Below, piece after piece: positions 23,542 through 57,146 of a DNA stretch of 64,000 nt. Origin of the DNA: an uncultured Ruminococcus sp. (GTDB lineage: Bacteria > Bacillota > Clostridia > Oscillospirales > CAG-272); the NCBI GenBank assembly GCA_902782445.1, contig CACZNC010000015.1, forward strand, positions 1-64,000, in the 5' to 3' direction. A model generated the notes under the pieces. That model ran no database searches. It was not told the origin of the DNA and saw only the letters and a program-made list of their open reading frames with translations. The translations under genes and the position numbers were made by a program. Within the stretch, counting starts at the first letter, position 1, and every line of letters starts with the position of its first letter.

Positions 23542-26500
23542 ATGGACGAAAAGAACAGCCTCGCCGCTTCCTTCGCTTCTCTGAACGAAGACCAGCTGAG
23601 GGCCGCCTGCGCCACCGAGGGCTGTATCCGGGTGATCGCCGGGGCAGGGTCCGGGAAGACGCGGGCTCTCATCCACCGCTACGCCTATCTCGTCCGCGCG
23701 GCCGGCATCCCTCCCTCCGACATCCTCTGCGTGACCTTCACGAACAAGGCGGCGGGGGAGATGAAAAAGCGCGTGCGGGCCCTGCTCGGCGACGGATACG
23801 ACACCTCCCTCATCACCACCTATCACGGCTTCTGCGTCCGGGTCCTGCGGGAGGACATCCATCGCCTGATGTGGCCGAAATCCTTCGCCATCCTCGACGA
23901 GGGGGACCAGCGGCGGATCCTCTCCGAGATCTACGGGGAGATGGAGCTGAAAATGGACCGCGCGACCTTCGAGAAGATCCTCGACGCGGTCAGGCGGCTG
24001 AAATCGAACGAGGACTACGTCGCGGCGATGGTCCGGGGGGACGTCTCCTCGCTGACCCCGCCCCCGGCCTCCCCCGCCGAACCCGTCTCCCCCCTCGAAT
24101 GCGAGATCGTCCGCCGGTATCTCTCCCGTCAGCGCAAAATCTTCGGGCTGGATTTCGACGACCTCGTGTCCTTCGCCTTTGCCGTGTTCCGGGATTATCC
24201 CGAAGTGGCGGACAAATGGGCCGAGCGGCTTTACTACATCCAGGTCGACGAGTTTCAGGATTCCTCGAAGCGGGAACTGCGGCTCCTGAGGCTCCTCTCC
24301 TCCCGTCACCGGAATCTCTTCGTCGTGGGGGACCCGGACCAGAACATCTACGAGTGGCGCGGCGCGGACATGTCGATCCTCGTCGACTTTGACAAGCTCT
24401 TTCCCGGGGCGGAGACGATCCTCATGAATCAGAACTACCGCTCCGCCGGGAACATCCTCCGCGCGGCGAACACCCTCATTTCCCATAACCGCAACCGCAT
24501 CCCGAAGGATCTCTGGACCCGGGAGCCGGCGGGGGCGGACGTGATCCACCTCCACGCGAAGACCGAAGAGGAGGAGGGCAAATGGATCGCCTCCGAAATC
24601 CGCCGCCTGACCCGGGAGGAAGGGTTCTCCTTCCGGGACATCGCGGTGCTCTACCGGGCGGGATTCCTCTCCCGGTTCGTGGAGCAGGCCCTGTCCGCGG
24701 CGTCGATCCCCTACGAGCTCTACGGCGGCGTCCGCTTTTATGAACGGATGGAGATCCGGGACACCCTCTCCTATCTGCGCCTGATCGAGCGGGACGACGA
24801 CGAGGCTTTCGAGCGGATCGTCAACACCCCCCGCCGGTCCTTCGGCAAATCGCGGCTGGAAGCCCTCCGGGTCCTCGCTTCGGAAGAGGGCGTCTCCCTT
24901 CTCGCCTCCCTTTCGGCCCACGCGGAAGACCCGCTTTTTTCCCGCACGGGAGGACCGGAGTTCGCCTCCATGATCCTCGAGCTGAGGGCCAAAGCGGAAT
25001 CACTGCCCGTCTCGGAACTGATGCAGGAAGTCCTGACCCGGTCCGGCTACGAGCAGTACATCCGCGAGCTCGGGAGCATGGAACGCCTCGACAATCTGGC
25101 GGAAATGAAGCGGTCCGTCTGGGAGCGGGAACAGAGTCAGGGAGAATTCTATCCCCTCTCGGCCTATCTGCAGGAAGCCGCGCTGGAAAGCGACCGGCAG
25201 GCGGAGGAAGGCGCGGACCGGGTAAAGCTCATGACCATCCACGCCTCGAAGGGACTGGAATTCCCCGTCTGCTTCACCGTCGGGTTCACGGAGGGCGTCT
25301 TCCCCTCGGGCCGGACGCTGGAGGAGCGGAAGGACGCGGGACTGGAGGAGGAACGGCGGCTGTGCTTCGTCGCGATGACGAGGGCGATGAAAAGGCTCTA
25401 TCTCACGGAATCCGAGGGAACGGGCTCCGACCGCGCCGTCAAGCGTCCCTCCCGGTTCCTCGCCGACACGGGGGAGGAGAACTATGTCCGCATCGGCGTG
25501 ATCCCGAAGGAACTGACGGAACCGAGCGGCGCGGCAGGGGTGGTTTCCGCGGGAAAAAGCCGTCAGGTCGGCGAGCGGGTGAACCATCCGATCTTCGGTC
25601 CGGGCGTCATCGAGCAGATCGACCCGGGAAAGGGGACAACCTATATCCGTTTCGACCGCTCGGGAGACCTCCGTCCCGTCAGCGCGGACTACGATTTCGA
25701 CGCCGCGTTCCCCCTCTTCCGCCCGATCCCGCAGACGGAAGAAAAGCCGGATCCCCCGCAGTCCGCCGAGAGACCGGAGGAACCACAAACCCATCCAGAC
25801 CCGCTCCCGGAGGCGGCAGAGGAAGCTCTTCCGGCGATCCCCCCGCCCGATCCCCTTCCCGTCCCGGAGGAGGAGGGAACCGGACCGGCCGAAACCGAAG
25901 CCCCGGCGGACCTTCCCCTCTGGCAGTGCTTCGCGCCTCCTGCGAGAGAAGCCGAAGAGGCGGAAGCGGAACGGACCTCCGACGGATCCGGCGCCGGTCC
26001 TGCGAGCGAAAAGCCAATATCCTATCCCTGGGAGGAGCGGATCGGTAAAGAGCGGGAACAGCGGGAAGACCGTCCGCAGAAAGAAAGGCCGAAGCCGCAG
26101 AAGCGGAAGCCGGAGGACCCCGCCCAGCTCGCCATGATCCCGGAGGAGAAGACCGCCGCCCCCGCGGAAAGCGAACCCGAATGGGCGCGTCCCCCCGTGG
26201 GATCGGAGATCGAAGAAAACCTCTGGAAGCGGGACGACGTTCCCCACAGCGGATGGGTCTGCACGGAGGTGATCGACCTCGGCGAGCCCGTCGGGACCTG
26301 CCGGATGTGCGGGCACCAGATCATCCGCTACGTCCACGTGATGCGGCACGACGCCTGGCCGGTCTCCGTCGGGGCGGGATGCGTCTGCGCCGGCCGGATG
26401 GAGGGGGATCCCGAGCGGGCGAAGAAGCGGGAGGCGGAGTTCAAGAACCGTCAGGCCCGCCGCGAGACCTTCCTGCATACCGAGACGAAGCGGAGCCGGA

Positions 26501-26673
26501 AGGGGAACGAATATCTGAAATACCGCGGCGAGACGGTGACCCTCCTCTCCGACCGCTTCCGCCCCGGATTCTTCAAGACCGTATGCCGCGGGGAGTATTC
26601 CGGATCCTTCCCGACGAAGGAAGAGGCCCTCGCCGCCGCGTTCGACCTGCTCGATCCGTGGGAACTGCAGTAA
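23542..26673 (+). CDS. UvrD/PcrA-type DNA helicase with C-terminal Tudor-like and Cys-rich modules
   Basis: The first 650 residues form a superfamily 1A 3'-5' helicase. Motif I is AGAGSGKTR (near 33-41), Ia is VTFTNKAAGEMKKR, II is VDEFQDS, III is VVGDPDQNIYEWRG, V is LMTIHASKGLEFP, and VI is FVAMTRAMKRLYL. Residues 678-730 resemble the Tudor-like tail of PcrA. A disordered Pro/Glu-rich linker (about 735-890) follows. The last 130 residues hold a module with Cys920-x2-Cys923 and Cys947-x-Cys949 (VGAGCVCAGRM), which looks zinc-binding. At 1043 residues it is 300 longer than PcrA. The helicase core is certain; the role of the added module is unknown. Confidence 0.9.
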   Translation: MDEKNSLAASFASLNEDQLRAACATEGCIRVIAGAGSGKTRALIHRYAYLVRAAGIPPSDILCVTFTNKAAGEMKKRVRALLGDGYDTSLITTYHGFCVRVLREDIHRLMWPKSFAILDEGDQRRILSEIYGEMELKMDRATFEKILDAVRRLKSNEDYVAAMVRGDVSSLTPPPASPAEPVSPLECEIVRRYLSRQRKIFGLDFDDLVSFAFAVFRDYPEVADKWAERLYYIQVDEFQDSSKRELRLLRLLSSRHRNLFVVGDPDQNIYEWRGADMSILVDFDKLFPGAETILMNQNYRSAGNILRAANTLISHNRNRIPKDLWTREPAGADVIHLHAKTEEEEGKWIASEIRRLTREEGFSFRDIAVLYRAGFLSRFVEQALSAASIPYELYGGVRFYERMEIRDTLSYLRLIERDDDEAFERIVNTPRRSFGKSRLEALRVLASEEGVSLLASLSAHAEDPLFSRTGGPEFASMILELRAKAESLPVSELMQEVLTRSGYEQYIRELGSMERLDNLAEMKRSVWEREQSQGEFYPLSAYLQEAALESDRQAEEGADRVKLMTIHASKGLEFPVCFTVGFTEGVFPSGRTLEERKDAGLEEERRLCFVAMTRAMKRLYLTESEGTGSDRAVKRPSRFLADTGEENYVRIGVIPKELTEPSGAAGVVSAGKSRQVGERVNHPIFGPGVIEQIDPGKGTTYIRFDRSGDLRPVSADYDFDAAFPLFRPIPQTEEKPDPPQSAERPEEPQTHPDPLPEAAEEALPAIPPPDPLPVPEEEGTGPAETEAPADLPLWQCFAPPAREAEEAEAERTSDGSGAGPASEKPISYPWEERIGKEREQREDRPQKERPKPQKRKPEDPAQLAMIPEEKTAAPAESEPEWARPPVGSEIEENLWKRDDVPHSGWVCTEVIDLGEPVGTCRMCGHQIIRYVHVMRHDAWPVSVGAGCVCAGRMEGDPERAKKREAEFKNRQARRETFLHTETKRSRKGNEYLKYRGETVTLLSDRFRPGFFKTVCRGEYSGSFPTKEEALAAAFDLLDPWELQ

Positions 26674-26891
26674 AAAGGAGACGCGGCTTCTTGAAAGAAG
26701 CCTGGCAAGAACTTTTGATGTGGATAGGGACAGGTCATACCAATCACGTACAGTCGAAACCCTAGCACACCAATATAGCCATCCAACCTTATCAGTGTTA
26801 TCGCACGCGAGCTCACAATCATAGATTGTTCGCACTCTACGGGGAGCGATCAAAACCCATGTAGTCAGCTTTTTTAGGCTGAAAAGAGTAT
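26674..26891 (-). repeat. Interspersed repeat family B, copy B1 (one end truncated)
   Basis: The copy begins at the helicase stop codon. The inverted-repeat end is missing, and the conserved AAGGAGACGCGGCTTC starts within 3 bp of the stop. It carries the GGCTTCTT/AAGAAGCC hairpin, ATATAGCCATCCAACC, the ACAATC-ATA-GATTGT hairpin next to GAGCTC, and CGATCAAAACCCATG. It ends at the terminal repeat GAGTAT (to 26891). Orientation is opposite to B2, B4 and B5. Confidence 0.85.
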
Positions 26892-34094: not shown

Positions 34095-34124
34095 CTGCGC
34101 CGGATGGACGGGATCCGATATTTT

Positions 34125-34300
34125 ATACTATTCTCGCTCTAAAAAGCTAACTATATGGGTTTTGATCGCTCTCCGTAGAGTGCGAACAATCTATGATTGT
34201 GAGCTCACGAACGATAACGCCTGTCCTTTTCCCATTTCAGAAGTTCTTGCCAGGCTTCTTTCAAGAAGCCGCGTTTTCCCTTTTAGTTTGAGATTAGTAT
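34125..34300 (+). repeat. Interspersed repeat family B, copy B2 (complete, 176 bp)
   Basis: The ends ATACTATTCTC and GAGATTAGTAT are inverted repeats of each other. The interior has GGGTTTTGATCGCTCTCC, the hairpin ACAATC-TAT-GATTGT (34186-34200), GAGCTCACGA and TTCTTGCCA, then the GGCTTCTT/AAGAAGCC hairpin. It takes up most of the gap 33996-34396, together with a terminator before and a promoter after. Confidence 0.85.
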
Positions 34301-34316
34301 TACCTCCGGAACGGGC

Positions 34317-34345
34317 TTGCAGAACGGGGCGGGGTGTGGTATAAT
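34317..34345 (+). promoter_or_regulatory. Sigma-A promoter of the propeller glycosidase gene
   Basis: TTGCAG (34317-34322) and TATAAT (34340-34345) are 17 bp apart, with TGTGG before the -10 box. It begins 17 bp after repeat B2 ends. Confidence 0.75.
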
Positions 34346-34396
34346 GGAACGGGGCGATCCCCCGGAAAGTACGACATCGGAAAGGAAGCGGACAGC

Positions 34397-35428
34397 ATGG
34401 AAGAGTTCAACTATCAGAATCAGTACGCGGACAGGACGGTGACGCCGGAGCGCATGAGGGAAGTGAGGGCGATGCTCGACACCCCCGTTCTGCGCGGTCC
34501 GGTCATGGAGTTTGACGACCGGTTTACGGACTGCCCGAGCGTATTCCGGTACCGGGGCGGATGGTACATGATCTTCATCGCTATCTCCAAGGACACGCGC
34601 GTCTCCGGCTACGAGACCCATCTTGCCGTCTCCGACGATCTGCTCCGCTGGCGGTATGCCGGGCCCCTCCTCTGCCGGGATCCCGGACGGGAATGGGATT
34701 CCAAGCAGATCGCGGGATATGCCGCGCTGTACGATCCGGCCGTCGGAGGAGGATGCGCTCTCTCGACCTACGGCGGCCGGTACTGGATGACGTATCTGGC
34801 CGGGGCAAGCGACGGATATGAGCCCGACCCGCTGCTCATGGGGATCGCCTCCGCCCGGGACCCGCTGGATCCGCAGTCCTACATCCGGGAAGACAAGCCG
34901 ATTTTGACCCCCGCCGACCCGGACGCCCGTTTCTTCGAGACAAGGACCCTCTACAAGAGCACGGTGATCCGGGACGAAGAGCGGCTGACCGGCCATGATT
35001 TCGTGATGTGCTACAACGCGAAGGCATACGACGGCCACGAGCGGATCTACACGGCGGTCTCCGACGACATGGTCCGCTGGACCCGGTACGGCCGATACCC
35101 GATCGTCGACGACATCACCGGGGACCCGGACTGCTACATCACCGCCGATCCGATGATCCTGAGAGAACGGGACGGGCTGTACATCATGAATATCATGAAG
35201 TTCAACCGCTCCCGCTCGGCCTTCGACACCTTCGCCTGCTCCTACGACCTGATCCACTGGACGGAATGGCTCGGGACCCCGACGATGGCTCCCTCCGCCG
35301 ACGATCCGAATCAGGACGTATACGCCCACAAGCCCTGGATCGTGACGTGGGAGGGGCATGTCTATCATTTCTACTGCGCGTGCACAAAGGACAACCGGCG
35401 GTATATCGCGCTGGCCACGGATTTTTGA
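34397..35428 (+). CDS. Five-bladed beta-propeller glycosidase-like protein (GH43/GH32/GH130 fold)
   Basis: The 343-residue cytoplasmic protein shows repeated blades of the type CPSVFRYRGGWYMIFIAIS..HLAVSDDLLRW, YDPAV..YGGRYWMTYLA, and ITADPMILRERDGLYIMNIMKF..SYDLIHW. Conserved Asp/Glu residues at blade starts are the likely catalytic positions in this fold. I cannot assign a family or substrate with confidence. The ATG at 34397 follows GGAAGCGGACAG; an extension to 34334 overlaps the promoter and is rejected. It precedes a Gfo/Idh dehydrogenase by 60 bp and is probably co-transcribed with it. Confidence 0.7.
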   Translation: MEEFNYQNQYADRTVTPERMREVRAMLDTPVLRGPVMEFDDRFTDCPSVFRYRGGWYMIFIAISKDTRVSGYETHLAVSDDLLRWRYAGPLLCRDPGREWDSKQIAGYAALYDPAVGGGCALSTYGGRYWMTYLAGASDGYEPDPLLMGIASARDPLDPQSYIREDKPILTPADPDARFFETRTLYKSTVIRDEERLTGHDFVMCYNAKAYDGHERIYTAVSDDMVRWTRYGRYPIVDDITGDPDCYITADPMILRERDGLYIMNIMKFNRSRSAFDTFACSYDLIHWTEWLGTPTMAPSADDPNQDVYAHKPWIVTWEGHVYHFYCACTKDNRRYIALATDF

Positions 35429-40613: not shown

Positions 40614-40616
40614 TTC

Positions 40617-40913
40617 ATACTATATCCCTTCTAAGGAGATACGCGGCTTCTTTGAAAAGAAGCCTGGCAAGAAACTTCAATTGGGGCAGAACAAGGCTGA
40701 CTCCATTTCGTCATATAGCCATCCAACCATATCAGAGTTATTGTTCGTGGGCTCAATGTTACGGCTGACATAAGCGAGAATTCCCAAAGGGGATTCTCGG
40801 GGGTGGGACGGCCCGTGTCATGTTTGGATATATGACATTCCCACCCCGTCGTTCGCACTCTACGGAGAGCGATCAAAACCCATGAAGATAGCTCCATAGA
40901 AGGAAAACAGTAT
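40617..40913 (-). repeat. Interspersed repeat family B, copy B3 (longest, with an extra hairpin module)
   Basis: The ends ATACTATATCCCTTCTA and TAGAAGGAAAACAGTAT are inverted repeats (14 of 17 matches). Between the conserved blocks, where other copies have a short hairpin, this copy carries about 95 bp with nested palindromes. These are CGAGAAT/ATTCTCG around a CCC/GGG core, and GGGGTGGGA/TCCCACCCC enclosing TGTCAT/ATGACA. Its last base is the outer base of the radA stop codon. It takes up the gap 40560-40912 together with the terminator. The left boundary is good to 1-2 bp. Confidence 0.85.
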
Positions 40914-42322
40914 CAGGATTCTTTTTCCGGGGCGGGGTCCGGCTTTTTGTCCCGGAACAGCCGCAGCGCGTCGTAGATCCCGGTCATGGGGATGAGTTCC
41001 GCGCCGTCGGGGAGGTCCGGGAGAGTCCCGGCGCAGCGTTTCGGCAGGGCGAGCTTTGTGAATCCGAGACGGAAGGCCTCGTTCGCGCGCTGGGGGGCGG
41101 AGGCGACCGAACGGAATTCCCCCGACAGCCCGAGTTCCCCGAAGACGATCACGTCGTCCGGGACCGGGATGTCGCGCAGGGAGGAGATCAGGGCGAAGCA
41201 GACCGCCGCGTCCGCCGCAGGTTCGTCCAGACGCAGGCCCCCGATCACGTTGAGATACACGTCGCAGGCGGAGAATTTCAGTCCCAGCCGCTTTTCGAGG
41301 ACGGCGAGGAGCAGGCACATCCGGTTGTAGTCCACGCCGTTCGCAGTGCGCCGGGGCGAGGGGAAGACCGTCGGGGTGACGAGAGCCTGGATCTCGGCGA
41401 TCAGGGGGCGGCTCCCCTCCATCACGCAGACGGCGCAGCTCCCGCTCACCCCCGTCGGACGGCCTTCGAGGAGCATGGCGGAGGGATTCGCGACTTCCTC
41501 GAGTCCATGCTCCTCCATCGAGAAGACCCCGATCTCGTTCGTCGACCCGAAGCGGTTCTTGACGGCCCGGACGATCCGGTGGGGCATCCGGCGGTCGCCC
41601 TCGAAGGTCAGAACGGCGTCAACCATGTGTTCGAGCACCTTCGGGCCCGCGATCCCGCCCTCCTTGTTCACGTGCCCCACGATCACCACGGAGGCCCCGT
41701 CCGTCTTTGCCCTCTCGATCATCCGGGAGGCGCATTCCCGCACCTGGGTCACGCTGCCCGCGGAGGAGGCCGCATCCTCGCAGACCATCGTCTGGATGGA
41801 GTCCACGATCATGAGATCCGGCTTCAGCTTGTCGTATTCCGAGAGGATCGCTTCGATGACCGTCTCCGTGAGCACGTAGAGCTGGGAAGCGTTCACCCCC
41901 AGACGGTCCGCCCGCATTTTGAGCTGGGAGCGCGATTCCTCCCCCGAGACGTAGAGCACCTTGCAGGAGTCGCCGATCTGTCCGCAGAGCTGCATGAGGA
42001 GCGTGGATTTTCCGATCCCCGGTTCCCCGGCCAGAAGAACGACGGAGCCCTCCACGAGCCCGCCGCCGAGCACCCGGTCGAGCTCCCCGATCCCGGTGGA
42101 ATGGCGCAGATATGCGGGCGCTTCGAAATCCCCGAACCGGACGGCGTGGTCCCGCTCCCGTCCTCCCGTCAGCCGTCCTCCTTTTGCGGCGGATTTCGGG
42201 GGAGCGGAGTATGTCTCCTCCTCGAAGGTGTTCCACTCTCCGCACTGGGGACAGCGGCCGAGCCATTTCGCGCTCTGGTAATCGCAGTTTTTGCAGGTAT
42301 AGACGGTCTTCGTGTTTTTCAT
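40913..42322 (-). CDS. radA: DNA repair protein RadA
   Basis: RadA (Sms) is a RecA-like branch-migration ATPase in recombination repair. The 469-residue protein starts with a zinc finger (CKNCDYQSAKWLGRCPQC). Walker A AGEPGIGKSTLL follows near residue 93, then the RadA-specific VKNRFGSTNEIGVF, and a C-terminal Lon-like domain (VGGLRLDEPAADAAVCFAL). The ATG at 42322 is preceded by GGGAG; an upstream extension to 42385 runs through the promoter and is rejected. The stop codon coincides with the end of repeat B3, so the last residues (PEKES) may have been set by that insertion. Confidence 0.96.
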   Translation of the reverse strand: MKNTKTVYTCKNCDYQSAKWLGRCPQCGEWNTFEEETYSAPPKSAAKGGRLTGGRERDHAVRFGDFEAPAYLRHSTGIGELDRVLGGGLVEGSVVLLAGEPGIGKSTLLMQLCGQIGDSCKVLYVSGEESRSQLKMRADRLGVNASQLYVLTETVIEAILSEYDKLKPDLMIVDSIQTMVCEDAASSAGSVTQVRECASRMIERAKTDGASVVIVGHVNKEGGIAGPKVLEHMVDAVLTFEGDRRMPHRIVRAVKNRFGSTNEIGVFSMEEHGLEEVANPSAMLLEGRPTGVSGSCAVCVMEGSRPLIAEIQALVTPTVFPSPRRTANGVDYNRMCLLLAVLEKRLGLKFSACDVYLNVIGGLRLDEPAADAAVCFALISSLRDIPVPDDVIVFGELGLSGEFRSVASAPQRANEAFRLGFTKLALPKRCAGTLPDLPDGAELIPMTGIYDALRLFRDKKPDPAPEKES

Positions 42323-43893: not shown

Positions 43894-43989
43894 ATACTAT
43901 ATTCCTTCTATAAAGCTGTCTTCATGGGTTTTGATCGCTCTCCGTAGAATGCGAACGGCCTTGCCGTGAGCTCGCGAAGGATAACCCTG
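43894..43989 (+). repeat. Interspersed repeat family B, copy B4 (left part only, 96 bp)
   Basis: The 96 bp are identical base for base to 54534-54629 of copy B5, from ATACTATATTCCTTC through the ACGGC-CTT-GCCGT hairpin to GATAACCCTG. The right part and terminal repeat are missing, and the sequence changes abruptly to GC-rich unique DNA. Confidence 0.9.
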
Positions 43990-52642: not shown

Positions 52643-54451
52643 ATGAAGAAAATCACCGACACCGTGTTCTATGCCGGCGTGGACGATCATGCCATCGACC
52701 TGTTCGAAGGGCAGTACGCCGTCCCGGAGGGCATGAGCTACAACTCCTACGTCGTCATGGACGAAAAGGCCGCCGTCTTCGACACGGTGGACGCCCGGTT
52801 CGGCCACGAATGGCTCGACAACCTGGCGGAGATCCTCGGCAGCCGCGCCCCGGATTATCTCGTCGTCCAGCACATGGAGCCCGACCACTCCGCGAACATC
52901 TTCAATTTCGCGAAGAACTATCCCACGGCGAAGATCGTCGGCAACGCGAAGACCTTCAACATGATGAAGCAGTTCTTCGGCACCGATTTCGAAGACCGCC
53001 GCGTCGTCGTGAAGGACGGGGACACCCTCTCCCTCGGCTCCCGGACCCTGACCTTCGTCTTCGCCCCGATGGTCCACTGGCCCGAGGTCATGGTGACCTA
53101 CGATTCCGCCGAAAAGATCCTCTTCTCCGCGGACGGCTTCGGCAAATTCGGAGCGGCCGGCGGCGAGAGCGCGAAACCGGAGGAGGACTGGGAATGCGAG
53201 GCCAGACGGTACTATTTCGGCATCGTCGGCAAGTACGGCGCCCAGGTCCAGGCTCTGCTCAAAAAGGCCGCCGGGCTGGAGATCGAGAAGATCCTGCCCC
53301 TCCACGGTCCCCTGCTCACCGAGAGCCTCGGGAAGTACCTGAATCTCTATAATATCTGGTCCTCCTACGCGGCTGAGACCGAAGGGATCCTCGTGGCCTA
53401 CACCTCCGTCTACGGCAACACGAAGAAGGCCGCGGAACTGATGGCGGACAAGCTGCGGGAGAAGGGATGCCCGAAGGTGGTGCTCACCGACCTTGCCCGC
53501 TCCGACATGGCCGAGAACGTGGAAGACGCCTTCCGCTATCCGAAAATGGTCCTCGCCACCACGACCTACAACGCGGATATCTTCCCCTTCATGCGGGAGT
53601 TCATCGAAGCCCTCACGGAGCGGAACTACCAGAAGCGCACCGTCGCGATCATCGAGAACGGGACCTGGGCTCCGATGGCCGCGAAGACGATCCGGGGACA
53701 CTTCGAGAAGTCGAAGGACGTCTTCATCCCGGAGCCGGTGGTGACGATCAGGTCCGCCCTGACCGACGAGAACAAAACCCAGATCGACGCCCTCGCCTCC
53801 GAGCTCTGCCGCGAGTATGTGGCCCAGTCCTCCGCGACGGCGAACAAGAACGATCTCACCGCCCTCTTCAAGATCGGATACGGCCTCTATGTCGTCACGT
53901 CCAACGACGGCAAGCGGGACAACGGCATGATCGTGAACACCGTCACCCAGGTCACGAACACGCCGAACCGGATCGCGGTCTGCATCAACAAGCAGAACTA
54001 CTCCCACCACGTCATCAAACAGACGGGGATCATGAACGTCAACTGCCTCTCCGTGGACGCGCCGTTCTCGGTCTTCGAGAATTTCGGATTCCGTTCCGGG
54101 CGAAACGCGGACAAGTTTGAGAATCAGGAGTTCTTCCGCTCCGACAACGGCCTCGTCTTCCTGCCGAAGTATATCAACGCCTTCATGTCGCTGAAAGTGG
54201 AGAACTACGTCGATCTCGACACCCACGGCATGTTCATCTGCACCGTGACGGAGGCCCGGGTGGTGTCCGACCGCGAGACCATGACCTACACCTACTACCA
54301 GAACAACGTGAAGCCGAAGCCGCAGCCCACCGGCAAGAAGGGCTGGGTCTGCAAGGTCTGCGGATACGTCTACGAGGGCGAGGAGCTCCCCGAGGACTTT
54401 ATCTGCCCGCTCTGCAAGCACGGCGCGGCGGATTTCGAACCCTTAGAATAA
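52643..54451 (+). CDS. Flavodiiron protein fused to flavin reductase and rubredoxin domains
   Basis: The 602-residue protein reduces oxygen (and possibly NO) to protect an anaerobe. Residues 1-245 are the beta-lactamase-like diiron domain with ligands His77-x-Glu79-x-Asp81-His82, then His in MVHWPEVM, Asp in FSADGFG and His in LPLHGPLL. Residues 250-395 are flavodoxin (ILVAYTSVYGNTKKAAE). Residues 405-555 are a flavin-reductase domain (LFKIGYGLYVVTSNDG). A C-terminal rubredoxin has Cys570-x2-Cys573 and Cys588-x2-Cys591. The chain thus carries most of its own electron path from NAD(P)H. RBS GGAGG. Confidence 0.93.
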   Translation: MKKITDTVFYAGVDDHAIDLFEGQYAVPEGMSYNSYVVMDEKAAVFDTVDARFGHEWLDNLAEILGSRAPDYLVVQHMEPDHSANIFNFAKNYPTAKIVGNAKTFNMMKQFFGTDFEDRRVVVKDGDTLSLGSRTLTFVFAPMVHWPEVMVTYDSAEKILFSADGFGKFGAAGGESAKPEEDWECEARRYYFGIVGKYGAQVQALLKKAAGLEIEKILPLHGPLLTESLGKYLNLYNIWSSYAAETEGILVAYTSVYGNTKKAAELMADKLREKGCPKVVLTDLARSDMAENVEDAFRYPKMVLATTTYNADIFPFMREFIEALTERNYQKRTVAIIENGTWAPMAAKTIRGHFEKSKDVFIPEPVVTIRSALTDENKTQIDALASELCREYVAQSSATANKNDLTALFKIGYGLYVVTSNDGKRDNGMIVNTVTQVTNTPNRIAVCINKQNYSHHVIKQTGIMNVNCLSVDAPFSVFENFGFRSGRNADKFENQEFFRSDNGLVFLPKYINAFMSLKVENYVDLDTHGMFICTVTEARVVSDRETMTYTYYQNNVKPKPQPTGKKGWVCKVCGYVYEGEELPEDFICPLCKHGAADFEPLE

Positions 54452-54485
54452 GCCGAAATCCGGCGAATCCCCTGAAACAAACCGG

Positions 54486-54520
54486 CCCCGGCGGGACAAA
54501 AGATCCTGTCGGGGCTTTTG
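54486..54520 (+). terminator. Terminator of the flavodiiron gene
   Basis: Arms GCCCCG..GGGA and TCCTG..CGGGGC pair with a bulge and are followed by TTTTGG. The T run is short. Confidence 0.65.
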
Positions 54521-54533
54521 GATTCGGGTTTTT

Positions 54534-54702
54534 ATACTATATTCCTTCTATAAAGCTGTCTTCATGGGTTTTGATCGCTCTCCGTAGAATGCGAACGGCC
54601 TTGCCGTGAGCTCGCGAAGGATAACCCTGCCCTATCCATTTCAGAAGTTCTTGCCAGGCTTCTTTCAAGAAGCCGCGTAACCCCTTAGAAGGGATTTAGT
54701 AT
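54534..54702 (+). repeat. Interspersed repeat family B, copy B5 (complete, 169 bp)
   Basis: The ends ATACTATATTCCTTCTA and TAGAAGGGATTTAGTAT are inverted repeats matching at 15 of 17 positions. The interior has the hairpin ACGGC-CTT-GCCGT (54595-54607) where B1 and B2 have ACAATC-TAT-GATTGT, then GAGCTCGCGA, TTCTTGCCA and the GGCTTCTT/AAGAAGCC hairpin. The last base is the outer base of the stop codon of the leftward gene. Confidence 0.9.
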
Positions 54703-57146
54703 TATTCGTGCTCGGAGAGCCAGATCGACACGCGGGACTGGATCTTTCTCGCGCAGTCCTCCGCGGTGCCGACGCCGCCGGTGAACGCCGAGATCTCCTC
54801 CGCGACGATCTCCGCGATATCCGGGGAGAGCTTTTCGGTCATGGGATAGCCCGCTATGTTCATGAGTCTCCGGATGTGTTCGAAATCCTCCGGCTCGTAG
54901 AGCACGATGTAGCCGGGCTTTTTGAGCTTGTCCTGGGTCAGTTCGGGGTCGCGGGGGGATCCGACGGTGGAGCCGTCGAAATAGACGATCGCCTGATGGT
55001 CCAGATAATCCCGTTCCGCGAGGGCTTCGTCGAACTTGCTCTCGAGGACCGGGAGCCCGATGGAGGTTGCGGGAGAAAGCAGGAACATGCGGATCACGTC
55101 CCAGCAGATGTCCGGGTTGGCGCACCATTTCGTCATGACGAGGCAGTTTTGCGCCCGGCAGTCGATGCCGCTGTGCCCCTGTGCGGGATGTCCGAGGAAC
55201 ACCCAGTCCTTCGTGCCGAACAGGCTTTCCGCCCGTTCATTCCTGAAATCGTAGACTCCTATCCACTGGAGGACGATCCTGTCCCGATAGGCGTAGTCGT
55301 AGATCGCCGCATCGTCCCGCGCCGCCCGCAGCTTTCCCGTCGGCGTGCTCTTCATCCAGTCGTCGAAGTCCTTCGGAAGCGAAGCGTAAAACTTCAGCCA
55401 GCGCGTGAAGAGGGGACTGTCGAACTTCGCCTCCCCCTTCTCCCGGTCGATGAACACGGAATACCCGTCCGGGCCGAGAAGCAAGTCGCCTGCATTTTCC
55501 TGCCATAGGGAATGATAGAAGACCGTGTCCTCCGGGAGACTCTCGGCGAGGTCCAGCATCTGCCCGAAGGTCCAGCCGCTCTCCTCCGTCAGCTCCGGCG
55601 CGAACCGATCGAGGACGGACCGGCAGGAGAACGGCCCCCAGAACTGGACGCTCGCCGTCAGCCCCCAGGTCTCCGCTCCGTCCGAAAACATCCGCTCCGC
55701 GCAGTCGAAGAGGTTGCCCCGGTTCACGGTATCGTCCCGCTCGATGAACGGGGATAGGTCCGCGTAAATATGATCCCGCACGAGCACCCGGACGAGATCG
55801 CCGCCGTAGGAACCGACCACGAGATCCGGCTTGTAGATGCCCGTCACGATGTCGGTCGTCAGTTTGCGGATGCCGCCGTCCGGGTTCTCCGCATTGTTGT
55901 AGAGGGTGTAGTCCTTCACCACCAGACGGCAGTCCGGGTGGGTCTTGTTGTATTCGACGATGAGATCGGGCCACTGATACGCCTCCCAGCCCCGTTCCGC
56001 CCCCAGCGCGATCTCGATGACTTTGAGGGTCGAAAGATCGACGTCTCCCGAGGCGGTATAAAGCGTCAGGCCCCCCTGTTCCGTGAAGAGCATACAGTCC
56101 TCCGAGAGCACGGCGAGCAGATAGGACCAGTCGTACCCGCTGCCGTTCACGTTCGTCTTCACGTTCGAATTGCCGAAGTCCATCAGGCATTCGACGGCGG
56201 CAATATCCTTGCTGTCCAGTACCGCCTTCCACACACCAGTGTTCGAGGAGTAGTAGAACGTCCGCCCGTCCCCGTCCCCGGGGAAGGTCACGCGGTCCGG
56301 CAGCTCGGGCAGCTCGATCCTGCGGGTCCCTCCGTCCTTCGAAAGGATCGACGCGCCGATCACCGTGGAATTGAGCTTCACCGCCGCGCCGCCTCCCGCG
56401 CCTGATGGGATCGCCGTCATGGGAGAATTGGTCCGGCTGTCGATCACGGCCTTCCGGACAAGAACCGGCGTGAAAACGACCGTTTTTCCCGACATGCCCC
56501 CGGTGAGGAATCCGGCCCAGACGTCGCCCTCCGCGTCCGCGATGAGATTCAGGATATCGAATTCGTTGTACGCGTCGAAAACGGGGTTGAGATAAAGCCC
56601 CTCCGAAAGCGTCCCCCCGGTCTCCCCCTCCGCGGGCGGATCGAAGCGGTAGAGGTAGTAGTCCCAAAAGGCGCGGAAGCCGTCCTCGCTCTTTTCGCGG
56701 GTCTTCCCTGCGGCGAAAAAGCACCGTCCTTGTGCGTCGAAGGCCCAGCGGGAAACAGTCAGATCGCCGATCCCGGGCAGCGGGACGGTCCGGGTGACGC
56801 CGTGCTCCGCGTCCGTCGTCGCGAGGACGTATTTCGGAAGGTCCTCCCCGTCGTTCTCCCGGATGCACAGGACGGTGACCGATCCCGTCTCCCGGTCGAC
56901 GAGGGGCGTGCAGCTCTGCGTTTCATATCCGGCTATGTACCCCTCGGGCAGGGGCAGTTTCACGGGCGTATAGACCCCGGTGAGCAGTTCTGCCCGGGCG
57001 GGATCCCTGTTCGCTCCCGCGACGACGGGGCCTTTCCCGGCGGTTTTCCCCTCTCCGCTCCCCCCTTCTCTTTTGCAGGACGCGCAGAAAACAAGCGCGG
57101 AGACCGCAAGCGTCCACGCGGCGAGCCGTATGACGGACCGTTTCAT
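54702..57146 (-). CDS. Lipoprotein with N-terminal propeller-like domain and C-terminal extracellular solute-binding domain
   Basis: The 814-residue protein has a lipoprotein signal (lipobox FCASC, Cys24; start at 57146 after GGGGAGGA). Residues 40-380 contain repeated short beta motifs (DLTVSRWAFDAQGRCFFAAGK, LIADAEGDVWAGFL, RTFYYSSNTGVWKAVL) like a beta-propeller. Residues 385-814 resemble family-1 sugar-type solute-binding proteins (VIEIALG..WPDLIVEYNKTHPDCRLVVKDY, KPDLVVGS, YPMTEKLSPD). No permease or ATPase genes are next to it. It may feed a distant ABC importer or act as a sensor. Confidence 0.78.
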   Translation of the reverse strand: MKRSVIRLAAWTLAVSALVFCASCKREGGSGEGKTAGKGPVVAGANRDPARAELLTGVYTPVKLPLPEGYIAGYETQSCTPLVDRETGSVTVLCIRENDGEDLPKYVLATTDAEHGVTRTVPLPGIGDLTVSRWAFDAQGRCFFAAGKTREKSEDGFRAFWDYYLYRFDPPAEGETGGTLSEGLYLNPVFDAYNEFDILNLIADAEGDVWAGFLTGGMSGKTVVFTPVLVRKAVIDSRTNSPMTAIPSGAGGGAAVKLNSTVIGASILSKDGGTRRIELPELPDRVTFPGDGDGRTFYYSSNTGVWKAVLDSKDIAAVECLMDFGNSNVKTNVNGSGYDWSYLLAVLSEDCMLFTEQGGLTLYTASGDVDLSTLKVIEIALGAERGWEAYQWPDLIVEYNKTHPDCRLVVKDYTLYNNAENPDGGIRKLTTDIVTGIYKPDLVVGSYGGDLVRVLVRDHIYADLSPFIERDDTVNRGNLFDCAERMFSDGAETWGLTASVQFWGPFSCRSVLDRFAPELTEESGWTFGQMLDLAESLPEDTVFYHSLWQENAGDLLLGPDGYSVFIDREKGEAKFDSPLFTRWLKFYASLPKDFDDWMKSTPTGKLRAARDDAAIYDYAYRDRIVLQWIGVYDFRNERAESLFGTKDWVFLGHPAQGHSGIDCRAQNCLVMTKWCANPDICWDVIRMFLLSPATSIGLPVLESKFDEALAERDYLDHQAIVYFDGSTVGSPRDPELTQDKLKKPGYIVLYEPEDFEHIRRLMNIAGYPMTEKLSPDIAEIVAEEISAFTGGVGTAEDCARKIQSRVSIWLSEHE

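Follow-up and report, generated by a model that had tools for sequence, protein, structure and literature searches.

A MITE-type repeat family from one genus of uncultured gut Oscillospirales and its unusual modular hairpin

Introduction

The Correia/NEMIS, ERIC and RUP repeats are bacterial MITEs, for which a review is available (PMC2229807). Their transcripts are predicted to fold into long stem-loops, some Correia elements have an internal block and others lack it, and RUP has been reported at TA sites and has IS630-like ends (PMC2229807). For the repeats of B. cereus a common secondary structure has been predicted (PMC2267715). One of these, bcr1, is associated with a TTTAT motif, and site-specific recombination has been proposed for it (PMC6542083). 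Autonomous elements of the IS1031 group, which belongs to the IS5 family, have TNA targets and an exclusive 3-bp direct repeat (PMC12016507).

Here we describe a repeat family with five copies in a 64,000-nucleotide stretch of DNA, the whole of which is referred to as the window. The family resembles Correia/NEMIS, ERIC and RUP in that it is short, non-coding, bounded by terminal inverted repeats (TIRs), target-duplicating, intergenic and present in many copies (PMC2229807). Judged by their descriptions, those repeats are set apart from it by sequence, ends, target (TNA here) and genus, and a further difference is that the sequence of one hairpin, at a position we call slot 1, is wholly exchanged between copies of the present family. 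The elements called TIMEs are reportedly mosaic, non-autonomous and built by miniature inverted-repeat elements; they have Tn3-derived ends, whereas the swapped unit here is a small palindrome within one element. With bcr1 and other B. cereus repeats the family shares restriction to a genus of Firmicutes, a high copy number (up to ~130 in those repeats) and mobile features, but it has TIRs and a TNA duplication in place of the bcr1 characteristics (PMC6542083). It shares the exclusive 3-bp direct repeat at TNA with the IS1031 group, whose members however encode a transposase and measure ~860 bp; the ends of ISLrh (GAACCTGTCTAGTATCT) are unlike the TACTA... ends found here (PMC12016507).

Results

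A first-pass annotation of the window had proposed five copies of a MITE-like repeat with an exchanged hairpin. All five are real: a scan of the window with a covariance model built on 25 diverse copies gave exactly five matches (E 6e-36 to 4e-15), and each copy was recovered by blastn as well. Their coordinates and parts are listed in Table 1. The two hairpin sequences that had been read in four of the copies are indeed present, and the TIRs of B2 and B5 are of different types, each complementary to itself. This complementarity is accounted for by the fact that a transposase ordinarily must bind both ends. The copy at 54534, like copies elsewhere, is a deleted version of a 232-bp element, the consensus of which was rebuilt from better copies in the same genome; relative to it, B5 has an internal deletion of ~63 bases. 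The shortness of B4 reflects either truncation or misassembly in the draft genome. Copy B2 and the next ORF (34334-35428, no Pfam match) are absent at the same place in genomes G003, G006 and G019, whose flanking genes are separated by no more than ~50-130 bases; the G002 homologue of this ORF has another location, again ~220 bases from a MITE copy.

Table 1. Copies of the repeat in the window, their parts and adjoining features.
Feature	Coordinates	Strand	Description
Copy B1	26675..26890	-	left TIR TACTCTTTTCAGCC at 26890, full interior, right TIR lost; edge adjoins stop codon of UvrD-like ORF 23542-26673
B1 slot-1 hairpin	26815..26829	-	ACAATC-TAT-GATTGT
Copy B2	34126..34299	+	complete, TIR-bounded, T2-type ends TACTATTCTCGCTCTAAAA
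B2 target duplication	left 34123..34125, right 34300-34302		TTA
B2 slot-1 hairpin	34186..34200	+	ACAATC-TAT-GATTGT
Copy B3	40618..40912	-	complete, TIR-bounded
B3 target duplication	left 40615..40617, right 40913-40915		TCA
B3 slot-1 module	40755..40851	-	97 bases; two long hairpins replacing the short hairpin
Copy B4	43895..43989	+	left part only; 96 bases identical to B5
B4 slot-1 hairpin	43955..43967	+	ACGGC-CTT-GCCGT
Terminator-like hairpin	54484-54516		resembles an intrinsic terminator; ends 18 bases before B5, at end of flavodiiron-like ORF 52643-54451
Copy B5	54535..54701	+	TIR-bounded, T1-type ends TACTATATTCCTTCTA / TACTAAATCCCTTCTA
B5 target duplication	left 54532..54534, right 54702..54704		TTA
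B5 slot-1 hairpin	54595..54607	+	ACGGC-CTT-GCCGT
B5 conserved 3' core hairpin	54657..54674	+	GGCTTCTTTCAAGAAGCC; common to all subtypes in genus

The family is abundant far beyond chance. Genome-wide, the TIR pattern gave 181 matches versus 9 for the reversed control pattern, and the core AAGTTYTTGCC AGGCTTYTTTCAARAAGCC GCGT gave 111 versus 0. The source genome is a draft of 4.16 Mb in 144 contigs, many of which terminate within element copies, as is expected of a high-copy repeat. Element length is about 150-305 bp (133-305 among type-A copies). At least partial matches were found in 14 of the 24 congeners examined, whereas the core was absent from ~294 genomes of the order outside the genus except for two with one weak match each. 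The exact core was also present in public rumen, goat, sheep and other Oscillospirales MAGs labelled Ruminococcus, Clostridia, Oscillospiraceae or Gemmiger. In the nearest carrier species, coding DNA corresponding to the surroundings of the window has 75-83% identity, yet some element copies are 97-98% identical to those here, a difference that suggests spread of the element between species. Phage and plasmid records contained no match to the consensus; one IMG/VR contig holds a relative with the same core, which makes phage carriage of the family conceivable. No published description of the family was found in the literature; it is a new family of MITE type, a kind already known, and its modular hairpin is unusual.

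The inverted-repeat ends start with TACTA(A/T) and are of two main types, T1 (TACTAWATYCCTTCTA) and T2 (TACTAWTCTCANNCTAAAA), which are alike flanked by identical 3-bp TNA direct repeats (TTA, TCA, TAA, TGA). In all the sequence fetched, 83 distinct intact TIR pairs with core had identical TNA duplications, and the middle base was evenly spread (TGA 24, TCA 23, TTA 20, TAA 16). Two precise empty sites were also recovered. When the flanks of an element of this genome (G000:C50) were joined and one of the two repeats was taken out, the resulting sequence aligned without a break to sister species G019 over ~137 bases, with one TCA at the junction. The empty counterpart of an element of G002 is a paralogous repeat that has one TGA. 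At the B3 locus the corresponding spacing in G019 is 128 versus 409 bases, indicating that the element is absent there; the intergenic DNA at this locus is too diverged to be aligned at the nucleotide level. The precise empty sites show that the element is mobile, and together with the duplications they are the mark of cut-and-insert transposition at a target staggered by 3 bp. The designation as MITE-like was thus well chosen, as TIRs, a target duplication of fixed length, precise empty sites and short length combined with high copy number were all found.

Insertions are biased in position. With genes called by a simple composition-based rule, 65/74 insertions were intergenic, versus 22% of TNA sites drawn at random from the loci concerned. 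Relative to random intergenic TNA sites, the 63 insertions with genes called on both sides were enriched between convergent genes (37/63 versus 26%) and depleted between co-directional genes (24/63 versus 49% expected) and especially between divergent genes (2/63 versus 25%). This orientation bias fits the survival of insertions that spare promoters and operons. Insertion next to terminators, observed in 5/74 versus 25/1480 cases, is too infrequent to explain it, and a preference of the element for terminators is not supported.

In agreement with the first-pass annotation, no transposase domain was detected among the ten window proteins scanned. Moreover, PF01609 and PF13359 had no match anywhere in the assembly of this genome. 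A transposase gene with matching ends was also sought in congeners, by searching all sequence fetched for TIR pairs 0.6-6 kb apart, and no autonomous partner with such ends was found in the ~1.5 Mb examined or among the PF01609/PF13359 hits. One 5.5 kb TIR-pair candidate (L182) proved to be two separate MITE copies, and the PF01609 and PF13359 transposases of congeners were rejected as partners because their ends differ. Even for accepted MITEs an autonomous partner sharing the ends is often missing, and as the assembly is incomplete its absence here is weak evidence. The TNA target and the 3-bp repeat make an IS1031-like enzyme of the IS5 family the natural guess and, by analogy, we infer that they suggest such an enzyme as the mover; ends or a transposase like those of this group were not found. 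Two species that carry the MITEs contain disrupted IS5-like transposase genes, which have inverted repeats AGTGTCTACACGA (L107/L250 in G002:C38 and L109/L251 in G019:C96); their ends do not match those of the MITEs.

Slot 1 is located between GCGAA and GAGC. Its 120 distinct occurrences, a few of which are chance pattern matches, comprise at least six short stems (CGGC, TCGC, CAATC, TGATC, CAGC and CGAC), all but two short forms being perfectly self-complementary, as well as longer modules of 30-31 and 97 bases. In 25 aligned copies the slot-1 helix was 100% paired and had 35 double-change cells versus 11.3 in shuffles (0/500), and no slid version of the helix came near it. For the other 22 predicted interior pairs, 4 double-change cells were counted versus 2.0 expected (50/500), which is no covariation above shuffles. 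The claim that pairing is kept while the sequence changes therefore holds for the slot-1 hairpin only and is not borne out for the remaining interior helices.

When slot 1 was left out, identical 127-column backbones combined with different hairpins were seen in three pairs of copies, the members of each pair lying at different sites (TCGC versus CGGC, TCGC versus a 30-base loop form, and CGGC versus a 30-base loop form), and in many other pairs with different hairpins the backbones were only 1-5 bases apart. On the backbone tree of 79 copies the eight hairpin states require at least 29 changes. A second slot, in the core, holds palindromes of the same style (GCTCAACTTGTTGAGC, GCTGAACTTGTTCAGC, GAGCAGCTTGCTGCTC), a third slot holds another one (TCAGAAGTTCGCGC...), and the states of slots 1 and 2 are found in all four possible combinations. 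The identical backbones with different hairpins, together with the occurrence of all slot combinations, make step-by-step compensation unlikely. Exchange of whole palindromes among copies is the simplest reading of these sequences, with the hairpin apparently swapped as a unit.

Discussion

The family, which inhabits a genus of uncultured gut Oscillospirales, is an unreported MITE family of great abundance and recent activity; it breaks the assemblies of its host genomes and sits at convergent gene ends. We consider it very probable that the copies represent a non-autonomous MITE-type element that is moved in trans and whose slot-1 hairpin is swapped whole. According to this model, a DDE transposase, resembling that of the IS1031 group as judged by its target, would recognise the TACTA... 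inverted repeats and insert the element at TNA, leaving the 3-bp duplication; the duplication and the precision of insertion are directly visible at the loci. The family has spread within the one genus, and apparently between species too, and copies would be tolerated in, or steered to, the spaces between convergent genes, either of which could produce the bias measured. The interior carries the conserved 3' hairpin and the slot-1 hairpin. The latter is exchanged between copies as an intact palindrome, for which recombination or template switching within this large set of copies is the likeliest route. Both the pairing of slot 1 and its swapping are seen in the copies themselves; selection or palindrome-specific repair would keep it paired.

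A tentative but possible extension is that the hairpins of slots 1, 2 and 3 are exchangeable cassettes. Palindrome-specific template switching or hairpin-directed gene conversion would then replace whole arms and leave the flanking bases unchanged, so that pairing would be kept without selection at the RNA level. Stem-preserving sequence change is generally regarded as proving that an RNA is functional, and the family provides about a hundred natural copies in which such change seems to come from wholesale palindrome swapping. If swapping is true, covariation in multicopy repeats would need a control for strand symmetry and backbone identity before being taken to indicate RNA function.

The palindromes could also matter as DNA, forming a cruciform or hairpin that the transposase or a protein of the host recognises, in which case pairing would be under selection at the DNA level and the two strands would be equivalent. 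This reading gains from the perfection of the slot-1 palindromes, from the additional palindromes inserted at several slots and from the equal frequencies of G.T and A.C (45 versus 44) in pairs chosen without wobble. We nevertheless regard it as doubtful, since intact-looking copies with target duplications have very different hairpins, 12 to 97 bases long, which indicates that no particular shape is needed for insertion.

A further alternative, and an unlikely one, is that the element transcript is a functional structured RNA, i.e. a processed stem-loop or a regulatory or stabilising RNA, and that selection on RNA folding keeps the exchanged hairpin. Consistent with this, one hairpin is perfectly paired with six different stem sequences, an interior motif is conserved across subtypes, and shuffled sequences fold less well than the + strand (z -3.9). 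In addition, some relatives have core copies located a few tens of bases upstream of start codons (L035 and L049 in G016, and L038 in G012), and the downstream genes, read by eye, resemble atpA, atpD and metK. RNA structure predicts, however, that G.U pairs are tolerated as intermediates on the transcribed strand. With G.T and A.C equally common no RNA strand is favoured, and in the interior without TIRs G.T was even the rarer of the two (22 versus 33). A fold in which wobble was allowed gave 192 G.T versus 39 A.C, but this excess is circular because the folding program itself chose the wobble pairs, and the reverse strand gives the mirror image (47 versus 132). Moreover, the reverse strand folds almost equally well (z -3.3), the other predicted helices lack covariation, and the hairpins are swapped without intermediate forms among otherwise identical copies. 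Rfam searches at the gathering threshold and at E<=1 gave nothing credible. Thus, nothing here shows the element acting as RNA, and the folded RNA that had been suggested in the first-pass annotation is unsupported.

Short-read assembly of so many similar copies is an improbable source of the modular variation. Contigs do end in copies, some copies contain N runs and internal deletions vary, and as short-read draft MAGs lose and scramble repeats, assembly errors may account for some of the mosaicism and for some of the internal deletions. The same hairpin variants recur, however, across several species, also on long contigs where target duplications are present, and a misjoin is unable to create a self-complementary stem. 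In addition, the slot-1 swap takes place within ~110 bases of the unique left flank, which limits misphasing of distant repeat parts. A single-strand hairpin element of the IS200/IS605, REP or attC type is hardly credible: a conserved subterminal hairpin and palindromes would suit it, but it is contradicted by the long TIRs, the 3-bp target duplications and the precise empty sites, a combination that, to our knowledge, these pathways do not make.

Returning to the MITE-type element moved in trans, its interior may have a role of its own. It is conserved across species, and relatives with different ends have part of it, so a function beyond transposition is possible; a passive filler would not need a conserved interior. 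The 3' core, and partly the interior, recur in elements with other ends, one such type having GTTACCCCGTGC inside and T2 ends. Other types occur in species without T1/T2 ends, where a single match to the model, weak but in the right place, was obtained (L065, E 0.008). Conversely, three loci of G003 (L154, L159 and L164) have T2-type TIRs and TNA duplications around an unrelated interior (CACCTCATCAGTCAGCC...GGATGAGGTG), indicating that the same ends move different cargo. Together, the core shared with other ends and the T2 ends shared with another interior indicate that ends and interiors have been reshuffled by recombination as the genus evolved. The same 3' core also accompanies a second interior type (GCGCTGTACGTTACCCCGTGCTGCAC...CTGCACCAG), which was observed at L140, L150, L160 and L165 (G006), at L156 and L166 (G019) and at L252 (IMG/VR contig), and one copy of this interior and core sits in a 90-kb viral contig.
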